Of a stretch of 43,228 nucleotides of DNA, positions 7,278-23,023 are shown piece by piece. Made by a program: the position numbers and the translations under genes. The notes under the pieces were generated by a model. It was not told the DNA's origin. It did not search any database and saw nothing but the letters and a program-made list of their open reading frames with translations. Source of the stretch: Thermoleophilia bacterium (GTDB lineage Bacteria; Actinomycetota; Thermoleophilia; Gaiellales; Gaiellaceae); contig JAHDVS010000019.1 in the NCBI GenBank assembly GCA_023382435.1, forward strand, positions 1 through 43,228. The letters run 5' to 3'. The stretch's first letter is position 1; each line of letters starts with the position of its first letter.

Positions 7278-7779
7278 GCGTGCACCCGACCGGCGGCGTC
7301 TCGACCACCGGTGGTGTCTCCCCCGCGAGGACGGCGTCGAGCGCCTGGCGCAGGTAGGGCTGCGCCCCGTCCCCGTCCTGGTAATTCGAGTCGGGGGAGC
7401 CGTGGTAGACGAGACGGCGTGAGGCGTCGAACAGGAATACCTCGGGCGTTCGCGCCGGCTGGTAGGCCTCGGCGACAGTCTGGGACTCGTCACGCAGGAA
7501 CGGAAACACGAACGCTTTGTCGCGAGCCCGCTCGGTCATCCGGTCGATGCTGTCGCCGATGTGGTCGTTCGAGTTGACGCAGACCAGGCCGGCGCGGCCC
7601 TCGTAGTCCCGGGCGATCGCGTTGAGACGGTCCTCCCAGGCGATCACGTACGGGCAGTGCACGCAGGTGAAGACGACGGCCACCGGCTGCCCGGGATAGT
7701 CGTCCAACGAATGGATCTCACCGTCGACGCCGGGGAGCTGAAAGGGGGGAGCGGGGTCCCCCGGCCGGAGGCGCGGCAT
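7261..7779 (-). CDS. Thioredoxin-fold (AhpC/TSA-redoxin type) protein
   Basis: A 172-residue cytoplasmic redox protein. The N-terminus LRPGDPAPPFQLPGVDGE is typical of the peroxiredoxin/TlpA superfamily, followed by VAVVFTCVHCPYV with a CxxC pair at Cys39 and Cys42, and the cis-Pro region ARTPEVFLFD. VNSNDHIGDSIDRM matches the group usually annotated as thioredoxin family protein, for which no defined substrate is known. ATG 7779 is supported by a TAGCAT hexamer 7 bases upstream on the minus strand. That element overlaps the -10 of the divergent acyltransferase. Confidence 0.88.
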   Translation of the reverse strand: MPRLRPGDPAPPFQLPGVDGEIHSLDDYPGQPVAVVFTCVHCPYVIAWEDRLNAIARDYEGRAGLVCVNSNDHIGDSIDRMTERARDKAFVFPFLRDESQTVAEAYQPARTPEVFLFDASRRLVYHGSPDSNYQDGDGAQPYLRQALDAVLAGETPPVVETPPVGCTLKWRS

Positions 7780-18591: not shown

Positions 18592-18610
18592 GGCCGCCTA
18601 CGGGGCGGCC
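18592..18610. terminator. Hairpin between fabI and the convergent membrane protein gene
   Basis: GGCCGCC and GGCGGCC (7 base pairs) enclose the loop TACGG. It lies immediately after the fabI stop and contains the TAG stop of the minus-strand gene. No T tract, so the assignment rests on position and stem only. Confidence 0.45.
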
Positions 18611-20625
18611 ATGTCCGTCGTGGCCTCCGTCCGCCGGAAAGTGAGCCTGACGATCTCGAGCCCCTGAGGCGGCGACGTGTCGAGCAGCGCCCCGACCTGG
18701 AAGTGGAGCCTGTGCCAGCGGTTTCCGCGCAGCTCGACGACGAGCGTGACGCTCGGACCGACTTCGATGCGGCGGGGCTGCCCGCCGTCGACTCGCACGA
18801 TCGCCGGGATCGCCTCCGGTGCCGCGACCTCGATCTCCAGGTCGACCTCGCCGAAGACCCACAGGGGCGCGTCGCGCTCCTTCATCGTCCAGCCGTCCCA
18901 GCCCTCGCAGAACACGGGCGCCGAGCGGTCGGGCTCCGGTACCGGGGCGGCCTGCACCGGGCTCCCCGCTCGCGCGACCAGCGGGAACGCCCAGACGCGG
19001 CCGCCCCGCGCGGCCGAGCGGTAGCCCCGCCGCTGCAGGAGCTGCCACGCGAACCAGGCGCCCGGGCGGCCCGACTGCGCGAACGCGCCCGCGTGGAAGA
19101 GCACGGTGCCCACGCCGAGCGCGCGTAGCCGGCTCCAGTCGCCGGGCAGCGCGACGCCGCAGTTGAGGCGGTTCAGGTCCCAGAAGAAGCTGTAGGCGAC
19201 CGTCGGGGCGAGCGACGAGTAACCGCTCGGACGCTCCCGAGGCGCCTGCAGCGCGTAGTAGTGGTAGACGCTCCCGTGGTGGATGCCGGGCTCGAACAGG
19301 GGCAGCTCGACGATCCGCCCGGGGCTCGCCCCCCGCGCGAGCATCGCGTAGGCGCCGTTGTCCGGGTCGGCCGCGGTCGCGCGCAACGGCAGCACGAGCA
19401 GGTCGCCGGCGACGAGGAGCAGCGCGGCGGCGAAGGCTGCCCGCCGCCAGCGTGGCCCGGCCCGCTGCAGCGCCCAAGTCGAGGCGAGCGCGGCGAGCGC
19501 GGCGAGTGCGAGGCACGCGATCGGCACCAGCCGCCCGGGCACGCGGGGGTAGCCGAACCCCGGGACGTAGCGCCAGAGCAGCTCGTACGTCGGCAGGTGT
19601 GTCCCGAGCGCCAGCAGGAGCGGCAGCAGCGCGGCGAGACCGAGGAGCGCAGCGAGCGCTGGCCGGCGGCGCCAGGCGAGCACGACGCCGGCCAGCGCGG
19701 CCAGCGGCGTCAACCAGCCGACGAAGACGTACTGCTCGAGGCCCCTGTCGCCGCGGAAGCGGTCGACGAGGTCGAGCCAACCCGCCTGGAACATCCGCAC
19801 CTGGTCGAGCGTGCGGCCACCCGCCGCGGCCGACTCCAGGATCACCGCCTCCCGGATCAGGAGACCGAGTGCGACCGACGCCCCCGCGGCGGCGACCAGC
19901 CAGAAGAACGGTGCGCGCCGGAAGCGAAGCGCCCCGTAGGCGAGGGCCAGCGGCACCGCCCCGAGCGCGAGATGCACCTGGCCGGAGAGCGGGATCGAGA
20001 CGAGCGACCCGGCCGCGAGCGCCCCCCACGCCTGGCGGCTTGCTGGGCCCGTGGCGACCCGGGCGCGCTCGTATGCCCAGAGCGAGAGCGGCAGGAAGAC
20101 CGCCGTCCAGCCGAGCAGGTGGCCGCCGCTCTGGGCGAGCCGGTAGGGGGCGAGCGCGAACGCGAGCCCGCCGATCGCCGCCGCGGCCGGCGGCAGCCGC
20201 AGCAGCGCCAGCCAGCCATAGGTGGCGAGGCCGGCGGCGACGATCGTCGCGAGCAGCAGCAGGTTCCAGGCGACGACGGGCCCGAACGCGGCCTCGAGCG
20301 GCCAGAACGGGAGCCCGAACGGCCAGCCCGCCAGGCTGAGCTGGTCGCCCGCGAGCGGCTGGAACGTGTACGGGTCGCGCCAGGGGGCCGCTCCGCGCTC
20401 GAGCTGGTGCCCGACCAGCCAGAAGCGGTAGACGGACTGGAGGTGATCGCCGCCGGCGGCCTCGCCGAAGCCCGGAGCTCCGCCGGCGACGAACGCCGAG
20501 CGGAAGCTGCCGATCCCCGGGGACGTGGCGGCCGCGGCCGCGGCCGCGTAGAGCGCTACGAGAGCGAGCGGGCGGCGGCGAGCAAGACGTCGAAGTCGGG
20601 CACCTCGCTCGGCTCGTACGCCCAT
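18598..20625 (-). CDS. Large polytopic membrane protein, GT-C glycosyltransferase-like
   Basis: A 675-residue protein with roughly 11-12 hydrophobic helices in residues 20-420 and a soluble, probably extracytoplasmic C-terminal part of about 250 residues with beta-rich segments. Seen: after the first helix, GEAAGGDHLQSVYRFWLVG carries an acidic/His loop in the place where GT-C enzymes hold catalytic acids; FALAPYRLAQSGGHLLGW is also suggestive of YfhO-like or GT-C proteins. No definite family is recognised. The ATG at 20625 lies 70 bases inside the end of the peroxiredoxin gene; no later start in this frame precedes the first helix, so real overlap is likely. Confidence 0.72.
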   Translation of the reverse strand: MGVRAERGARLRRLARRRPLALVALYAAAAAAATSPGIGSFRSAFVAGGAPGFGEAAGGDHLQSVYRFWLVGHQLERGAAPWRDPYTFQPLAGDQLSLAGWPFGLPFWPLEAAFGPVVAWNLLLLATIVAAGLATYGWLALLRLPPAAAAIGGLAFALAPYRLAQSGGHLLGWTAVFLPLSLWAYERARVATGPASRQAWGALAAGSLVSIPLSGQVHLALGAVPLALAYGALRFRRAPFFWLVAAAGASVALGLLIREAVILESAAAGGRTLDQVRMFQAGWLDLVDRFRGDRGLEQYVFVGWLTPLAALAGVVLAWRRRPALAALLGLAALLPLLLALGTHLPTYELLWRYVPGFGYPRVPGRLVPIACLALAALAALASTWALQRAGPRWRRAAFAAALLLVAGDLLVLPLRATAADPDNGAYAMLARGASPGRIVELPLFEPGIHHGSVYHYYALQAPRERPSGYSSLAPTVAYSFFWDLNRLNCGVALPGDWSRLRALGVGTVLFHAGAFAQSGRPGAWFAWQLLQRRGYRSAARGGRVWAFPLVARAGSPVQAAPVPEPDRSAPVFCEGWDGWTMKERDAPLWVFGEVDLEIEVAAPEAIPAIVRVDGGQPRRIEVGPSVTLVVELRGNRWHRLHFQVGALLDTSPPQGLEIVRLTFRRTEATTDMAAP

Positions 20626-21023
20626 GTTCCGCGGATGATGCCGTCTCCGGCCACGAGGAAGGCGCTCCTCGTCGGGATCTCGCGCATGCCGCGGTACTCG
20701 TGACCGACCCCGAAGCCGCGCACCGCGTCCCCGTTCCAGTCGGACAAGAGCGGGAACGTCAGGTCGAGCACCTGGGTCCAGGCGGCGTGCGACCAGGGGC
20801 TGTCGCGGGAGATCCCGAACACCCGCACGCCCGCCTCGTCGAACTCGCCCTTCCTGTCACGCAGGATCGTCAGCTCTTCCTGTCAGGTGCCGGTCCAGTC
20901 GTAGAGGTAGAAGAGAAGCAGGAACGGCCCGTCCGCGGCGAGCTCCGCGAGCGTCACGCCCTCCGCGTCCGCCGCGCTCCTCCACACCCGCGCCGCCGGC
21001 ACCCGCTCGCCAGGCCCGATCAT
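20556..21023 (-). CDS. Probable selenocysteine-containing AhpE-type peroxiredoxin (in-frame TGA at codon 47)
   Basis: Reads as 155 residues from ATG 21023 to TAG 20556 if the TGA at 20885-20883 is decoded as selenocysteine. The peptide around it is FYLYDWTGT-U-QEELTILRD. In AhpE-type peroxiredoxins the same place reads F-T-G-x-C-Q-x-E-L, with the peroxidatic Cys at the TGA position and the conserved Thr three residues before (Thr44). Downstream features fit: ISRDSPWSHAAW, FPLLSDW, and the conserved Arg119 in PTRSAFLV. The protein has no cysteine, so it would be a one-Sec enzyme reducing peroxides. A hairpin at SECIS distance follows the TGA. The 90-residue ORF from GTG 20828 is only the C-terminal part. 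A Cys-to-stop mutation (pseudogene) is the alternative. Confidence 0.8.
20847..20874 (-). promoter_or_regulatory. Candidate bacterial SECIS hairpin after the in-frame TGA
   Basis: On the coding strand TCCTG (20866-20862), loop CGTGA (20861-20857) and CAGGA (20856-20852) form a 5-base-pair hairpin. Its loop begins 22 bases after the TGA and has G at the second position, as bacterial SECIS loops usually have G among the first two bases. A lower helix GCT/GGC (20874-20872 with 20849-20847) can extend it across an internal loop. CAGGA directly after the TGA can compete for TCCTG. Confidence 0.5.
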
Positions 21024-21032
21024 GCGCACCGG

Positions 21033-21054
21033 CGGCGGCCGCTAGGGGCCGCCG
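21033..21054. terminator. Stem-loop at the ridA stop, before the peroxiredoxin
   Basis: CGGCGGCC and GGCCGCCG (8 base pairs) enclose a 6-base loop that carries the ridA TAG stop. It sits 10 bases before the peroxiredoxin ATG on the minus strand. It could be a partial terminator or could limit ribosome entry to the downstream gene, which has no visible Shine-Dalgarno. Confidence 0.4.
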
Positions 21055-21428
21055 ACGACGGCCTCGACCTCGATCTCGACCCGCCAGCGCGGGTCGAGCA
21101 GGCCAGCGAGCACCGTCGTGTTGACCGGGCGGACGTTGGCGAACGCCTCCCCGTGCGCCCTGGCGAAGCCGTCGAAGTCCTCCGGGTCGACCAGGAAGAC
21201 TCGGGTGCGGACGACGTCCTGGAGGCCGGACCCGGCTTCGGCCAGCGCCGTGGCGATGATCGCGAGGCAGCGCTTCGACTGCCCGTACGCGTCGGAGGGC
21301 GGGTCGGCGCCGTCGGGCATGACCGGGGCCGTGCCGGCGACGAAGACCCGGTCGCCCACCCTGACCGCCCGGCAGTAGCCGGCGATCGCCTCGTAGGGCG
21401 ATCCGGAGAAGACCCGTTGGCGTTGCAC
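21042..21428 (-). CDS. RidA/YjgF family protein
   Basis: A 128-residue protein of the RidA (YjgF/UK114) family; founding members deaminate reactive enamine/imine intermediates from PLP enzymes. Seen: GYCRAVRVGDRVFVAGTAP, QSKRCLAIIATALAEAGSGLQDVVRTRVFLVD with the conserved Arg, and a C-terminus WRVEIEVEAVVG matching the trimer-interface strand. Some RidA subgroups lack the deaminase Arg; here VVRTRVFLVD retains it. GTG 21428 chosen because MQRQRVFSGSPYEA begins the domain. It is the first gene of a leftward unit with the peroxiredoxin 18 bases downstream. Confidence 0.9.
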   Translation of the reverse strand: MQRQRVFSGSPYEAIAGYCRAVRVGDRVFVAGTAPVMPDGADPPSDAYGQSKRCLAIIATALAEAGSGLQDVVRTRVFLVDPEDFDGFARAHGEAFANVRPVNTTVLAGLLDPRWRVEIEVEAVVGGP

Positions 21429-22705: not shown

Positions 22706-23023
22706 CTACGCGGCCACGAGCCCGAGATTGCGCTCGAGCATCTGCTTGGGCTGCGCGCCGACCGCGGCGGCGGCCGGCTGGCCGCCCTCGAACAGGATGA
22801 TCGTGGGAATGCTCATCACGCCGTAGCGGCGAGCGAGGTCGGGCTCCTCGTCGATGTTCACCTTGACGACCTTCAGCTCCGTGCGCTCCTCCGCGATCCG
22901 GTCGAGCACAGGCGCCACGGCTCGGCACGGCCCGCACCATTCGGCCCAGAAATCGACGATCACCGGCTGCTCGCTGGCGAGCACCTCCGAGTCGAACGTG
23001 GACGTTGTCACTGTGGTAGTCAA
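22706..23023 (-). CDS. trxA: Thioredoxin
   Basis: A 105-residue canonical thioredoxin, cytoplasmic dithiol reductant. Seen: VIVDFWAEWCGPCRAVAPVL with Cys30 and Cys33, KVVKVNIDEEPDLARRYGV, and the cis-Pro SIPTIILFEGG. Starts with TTG at 23023: GGAGG lies 5 bases before it, which favours TTG over the in-frame GTG at 23011. Possible reductant for the peroxiredoxin about 1.7 kb away, though no operon link exists. Divergent from ileS. Confidence 0.96.
   Translation of the reverse strand: MTTTVTTSTFDSEVLASEQPVIVDFWAEWCGPCRAVAPVLDRIAEERTELKVVKVNIDEEPDLARRYGVMSIPTIILFEGGQPAAAAVGAQPKQMLERNLGLVAA

Follow-up and report, generated by a model that had tools for sequence, protein, structure and literature searches.

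The window, by which we mean the whole 43,228-nucleotide stretch of DNA analyzed here, carries a peroxiredoxin gene on its minus strand with an in-frame TGA and a potential mRNA hairpin closely behind it (Table 1). When the TGA is read through, the frame runs from an ATG at 21023–21021 to a TAG at 20558–20556, and the product (P0003) has 155 amino acids with selenocysteine (Sec) at position 47. Compared with the AhpC-TSA family model PF00578, this product scores 84.6 bits against a curated cut-off of 26. The RidA-family gene upstream lies on the same strand, 18 nt before the ATG. Downstream, the frame 18601–20625 (minus strand) encodes a protein without a Pfam family, and its true start probably lies downstream of 20625; at 17 of 30 loci, the window included, a strong match to this protein (score above 600) follows the peroxiredoxin at an equal distance. 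The window holds two further AhpC/TSA-like places, at 7405–7764 and 22745–23002, both on the minus strand and without a TGA. The genome as a whole (2.73 Mb in 79 contigs) has six AhpC-TSA places, and only the gene described here contains a TGA.

Table 1. Features of the peroxiredoxin locus (positions in the window)
Feature	Position	Strand	Basis
Predicted selenoprotein peroxiredoxin gene, AhpC/TSA family	20556..21023	-	Read-through translation, PF00578 match
In-frame TGA, predicted Sec codon of the peroxidatic site (WTGTU)	20885-20883	-	TGA in 72/79, TGT/TGC in 7/79 close orthologues
Predicted SECIS apical hairpin	20852..20866	-	Five core pairs in 71/72 TGA versus 0/7 Cys orthologues
Possible lower helix GAGCU 20876-20872 / AGUUC 20845-20841	20841..20876	-	48-54 nt folds of the window
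Direct repeat TGACAGGAAG, proposed switch element	20885-20876 and 20859-20850	-	First CAGGA in 1/72
RidA/Endoribonuclease L-PSP family gene, upstream neighbour	21042..21428	-	PF01042, 88.7 bits

The peroxiredoxin and its orthologues

Of 129 genomes of the order that were searched, 85 gave matches, and 85 loci were aligned. The counts rest on the 79 close orthologues, which score 290 or more; six distant paralogues (L102–L107) were left out, as were the weaker, unfetched matches of the search and a second fragment from genome G103. Loci from an alignment scan of contig records come for the most part from these same assemblies and did not enter the counts. The 79 include L083, whose underlying match carries an extra TAG, and L090 (G122:C105), which has Cys and an in-frame TAA; the genome of L090 also has a TGA copy (L092), and L090 is perhaps a decaying paralogue. 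Among the distant paralogues, L102 and L103 represent a second type of Sec peroxiredoxin in the order (FTGSxEGGU), and L104 and L105 resemble the Cys counterpart of that type. Most of the labelled records that carry the window's peroxiredoxin gene are MAGs named Gaiellaceae, Thermoleophilia, Actinobacteria or Actinomycetota. Two records that contain the gene are labelled Acidobacteriota and Burkholderiales (L126 and L135), and these labels are probably wrong.

Selenoprotein peroxiredoxins have long been known (PMC1794560, PMC2398784, PMC5029168, PMC13188914). The family is described by PF00578 and a TxxU motif (PMC13188914), and it has been reported from 78 organisms (PMC5029168). The window protein resembles it in belonging to AhpC/TSA, in the predicted Sec at the peroxidatic place and in a bSECIS-like hairpin just behind the UGA. 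The residue three before Sec is Thr in the window and Ser or Thr in all 72 TGA orthologues, and Sec exchanges with Cys in 7 of the 79. In contrast to the canonical motif PxxxTxxC/U, the window protein has a Leu instead of a Pro seven residues before Sec, and a Pro at this position is found in only four of the 79 orthologues (L087, L089, L096 and L100). Judged by its sequence, the protein is nevertheless inside the PF00578/TxxU family because the TxxU entry omits the Pro. It is far from the curated PrxU model NF040737 (42.3 bits, cut-off 270) and is not filed as PrxU.

A further difference from the known selenoprotein peroxiredoxins is that most members here contain no other Cys. Besides Sec-47, the window protein has no cysteine at all, and the same holds for the residues outside the Sec/Cys position in 54 of the 79 orthologues, the window included. 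The window protein would therefore be a one-Sec peroxiredoxin that depends on an external reductant. A single Arg in the stretch PTRSAFLV (R108 of A2) is invariant in all 29 aligned rows and is presumably the catalytic active-site Arg. Among solved structures, the Bcp-type thiol peroxidase 2cx3 (98.9 bits) and the mycobacterial AhpE chains 1xxu and 4x0x (about 70 bits) come closest by profile, matching along nearly the full length. We take these Rv2238c chains to be AhpE, a one-Cys enzyme. Both 2cx3 and AhpE are Cys enzymes, whereas the window protein would have Sec in place of the Cys.

The hairpin behind the TGA

The stem of the hairpin is formed by UCCUG (20866–20862) and CAGGA (20856–20852), which enclose the loop CGUGA (20861–20857) on the minus strand. 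Counted from the TGA, the loop begins at base 22, so that 21 nt lie between UGA and loop, and the second loop position is a G. The original prediction of a hairpin at bacterial SECIS distance, with the loop starting at base 22 and a G at loop position 2, agrees with these coordinates. Published rules for bSECIS elements, which restate the model of Zhang and Gladyshev, give a loop of 3–9 nt, a stem of 4–16 bp, 16–37 nt from the UGA to the apical loop, a G in the first two loop positions that is usually followed by G or U, and an MFE of at most −7.5 kcal/mol (PMC13188914). In loop size (5 nt), stem length, loop sequence and UGA spacing, the hairpin is like these bacterial elements. The stem has 5 bp in the window, and of seven tested pairs all seven can form in 48 and six in 20 of the 72 TGA orthologues. 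The loop G is present in all 72, followed by U in 69 and by G in 3. The energy depends on the stretch that is taken: it is −8.5 kcal/mol for 40–43 nt counted from the UGA, and −4.8 kcal/mol for the bare hairpin.

Judged on the window alone, the hairpin is unremarkable. It has only five base pairs and an A-A mismatch at a position that is paired in most relatives. Partition functions give the core a pairing probability of 0.89–0.99. The fold of 63 nt has a z-score of −0.36, with 66 of 200 shuffled sequences folding as well, and the fold of 43 nt has a z-score of −0.52 (54 of 200). When the codons of the window were replaced synonymously, a rule-conforming hairpin of equal or better stability arose in 4.35% of 2000 trials. 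A 121-base stretch gave no match at E values up to 5 in Rfam, which may lack a model suited to bSECIS elements. When the window's own genome was scanned with a covariance model of the hairpin, one strong place came up, the window itself (53.3 bits), followed by places of 24.6 bits and below; around the three of these that were inspected there is no selenoprotein gene.

The lower helix of the original prediction, GCU/GGC (20874–20872 / 20849–20847), can be drawn but is missing from the minimum-energy folds and was rejected for this reason. Folds of 48–54 nt pair GAGCU with AGUUC instead. Over the 72 TGA orthologues, 83.1% of the cells of this alternative helix are paired, and one of its pairs is unpaired in 47 of the 72. 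The possible GAGCU/AGUUC helix is weak and probably mostly codon-driven; its bases belong to conserved Glu and Phe/Leu codons.

Conservation with TGA and loss with cysteine

The five core pairs can form in all but one of the 72 TGA orthologues and in none of the seven Cys orthologues, even though these encode almost the same peptide, (L/T)LRDR in all seven, by other codons. A conserved stem-loop in the orthologues that retain the TGA, on which the original prediction had made its hairpin depend, is therefore found. A 15-mer, CTCCTGCGTGACAGG, is shared by 66 of the 72. Under synonymous recoding the core is expected in a mean of 0.18% of cases per gene, against 71 of 72 observed in related sequences that are not independent of each other. 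Conservation of the five pairs to this degree greatly exceeds what chance would give. The nucleotide conservation was assessed inside a single order.

The codon choice in the loop follows the same division. The loop Arg codon is CGT in 69 and CGG in 3 of the TGA forms and never CGC, which is the codon in five of the seven Cys forms. Elsewhere in the same genes, Arg is encoded by CGC in 59.6%, by CGT in 4.8% and by AGG in 4.2% of cases. For the second Arg, 71 of the TGA forms use AGG and one uses AGA. Because the loop Arg codon is CGT or CGG, loop positions 2 and 3 are G-[U/G] in all 72, in agreement with the published consensus (PMC13188914).

A pair outside the core (columns 18/36) is G-C in 42, C-G in 5 and G-U in 2 of the TGA orthologues and unpaired in 23. 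Covariation, which had been suggested as a check, is present to a limited extent: changes on both sides occur in only one of seven pairs (5 cells). The support for the stem is thus small from covariation, large from synonymous constraint and consists mostly of invariance. On the window alone the hairpin is barely beyond chance, but the comparison of the orthologues decides for a SECIS.

On a tree of the 79 proteins, calculated with the Sec/Cys column set to X, the Sec/Cys label changes at least four times, and the starred branches force four changes. The Cys rows are interspersed among the TGA rows, and the likeliest history is therefore that Sec was replaced by Cys several times, with the five-pair core lost each time. 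Sec-to-Cys conversions have been described for other families, some of them with remnant SECIS-like structures (PMC1794560). SelB or a further factor might read the bases of the stem, so that the peroxiredoxin SECIS of this order would be fixed in its bases and not only in its fold; this would account for 15 nt that are nearly frozen in diverged genes and broken up in each Cys lineage. We regard such a reading as rather unlikely.

A search of 396 genomes of the phylum found distant homologues, at least 13 of them with a TGA among the matches listed. By a simple scan, nine of these 13 have a rule-conforming hairpin and four have none; the hairpin of L227, included in the nine, has a positive energy and ought to be discounted. 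The strong distant hairpins again have AGU loops (L224, L228, L229 and L230). The sequence of the hairpin is thus not conserved beyond the order. Four of the homologues (L223, L226, L227 and L231) lack a good rule-conforming hairpin and show arms of the kind GUAU...AUAC by eye, perhaps representing another class of SECIS.

Selenocysteine decoding and alternative readings

The window's own genome contains the genes expected for decoding of Sec. A tRNA-Sec was found with 63.8 bits and is called tRNA-SeC (tca) by ARAGORN. It is accompanied by selA (529.6 bits), selD (325.2 bits) and selB (315.4 bits), the last with the SelB beta-barrel and SelB-wing_3 domains. The gene for formate dehydrogenase alpha (FdhA, G000:C25:20749-22701, L235) has one in-frame TGA (C25:20995-20997) with a strong hairpin behind it, in which GGUCU is a possible reading of the loop, and FdhA is a candidate for a second selenoprotein of this genome. 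The covariance model of the peroxiredoxin hairpin did not list the FdhA SECIS and is therefore no general SECIS finder.

Throughout the order, selA is found in 53 of the 72 TGA genomes and in three more as fragments that were counted as selA (G065, G066 and G070). Among the listed TGA genomes that are at least 90% complete, it is present in 22 of 24. The other 16 TGA genomes have no selA match, and they count against a perfect link between TGA and selA. Most of them are fragmented assemblies; G032 and G072 are listed as 91% complete and the other 14 are less complete. In G032 and G072 there is no match to the SelB barrel, and the tRNA-Sec matches of about 50 bits are not convincing; matches near this value were not taken as proof, as controls such as Caulobacter and Thermus also pass the cut-off. 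Three of the 16 (G067, G106 and G108) have a tRNA-Sec above 58 bits, and G021 has a piece of SelB. Compared with all other genomes of the order, TGA and selA are associated with an odds ratio of 4.2 (Fisher p 0.0002, uncorrected for kinship).

The in-frame TGA of the peroxiredoxin gene is almost certainly read as selenocysteine, and it is highly probable that the hairpin is the SECIS directing its incorporation, as the original prediction had it. The computed basis of this reading is the conserved TGA, the hairpin, its loss with Cys and the presence of tRNA-Sec, selA, selB and selD. When a ribosome reaches the UGA, SelB-GTP with Sec-tRNA(Sec) would bind the hairpin, probably by contacting N-G-[U/G] in its loop, and would deliver Sec to the A site. 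The product would be an AhpC/TSA-type peroxiredoxin with Sec-47 as its only Cys-like residue at the peroxidatic position. It would reduce peroxide by way of a selenenic acid and would be recycled by an external thiol.

Other explanations of the locus were weighed against this one. The hairpin of the window, taken by itself, is no more stable than shuffled sequences, as would be expected if the TGA were an ordinary nonsense mutation that truncates a pseudogene and the hairpin a coincidence. Within one order, 72 orthologues nevertheless carry the same TGA and 71 the hairpin core, the reading frame is intact on both sides of the TGA, and the Sec machinery is present. The conservation of TGA and hairpin already refutes a pseudogene, and the chance that it is one after all is negligible. 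The residue inserted at the TGA is deduced, and it might instead be Cys, Trp or another amino acid, inserted by near-cognate read-through or a changed code, with the 15-mer serving as a binding site for a protein or as a pause. Against this, the TGA stands at the redox position and is exchanged only for Cys codons among the 79 orthologues, the 15-mer is lost in the Cys forms, and the genome contains selA, selB, selD and tRNA-Sec. We consider insertion of another amino acid very improbable.

The original prediction also included a two-state RNA switch. A CAGGA directly after the TGA is complementary to UCCUG, and pairing of the two would hide the SECIS and lead to termination, whereas Sec would be inserted when the SECIS forms. 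The repeat TGACAGGAAG does occur twice, but the copies are 26 bases apart and not 27 as had been stated, which puts the second TGA out of frame. The CAGGA after the TGA is found in one of the 72 TGA orthologues, the window itself. The rival pairing has a probability of 0.011–0.017 in stretches of 40–43 nt and of 0.000 in stretches of 48–54 nt, and forcing it costs about 2.9–6.8 kcal/mol. During decoding of the UGA, the first CAGGA would also lie in or near the mRNA channel of the ribosome. Whether a ribosome terminates or inserts Sec is normally set by the supply of Sec-tRNA and SelB, so no RNA switch is needed. With its lack of conservation and its unfavorable fold energies the switch was rejected, and there is hardly any likelihood that it operates; we regard the repeat as fortuitous, a product of the Gln and Glu codons that come after the TGA in this gene.

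As a SECIS-directed selenoprotein, the TGA-containing peroxiredoxin with its hairpin adds one more case to an arrangement that was already known. No paper on selenoproteins of Thermoleophilia or Gaiella was found among the titles and the beginnings of abstracts in the open-access literature. The gene would usually be annotated as two fragments or as a pseudogene. With its recognition, an uncultured actinobacterial order, represented chiefly by assemblies from soil and sediment, gains a widespread selenoprotein. Taken in pairs, the Sec and Cys orthologues amount to a clean natural experiment, in which synonymous sites behind the codon are frozen with Sec and released with Cys. They make a good test set for the prediction of bacterial SECIS elements and for what SelB reads.
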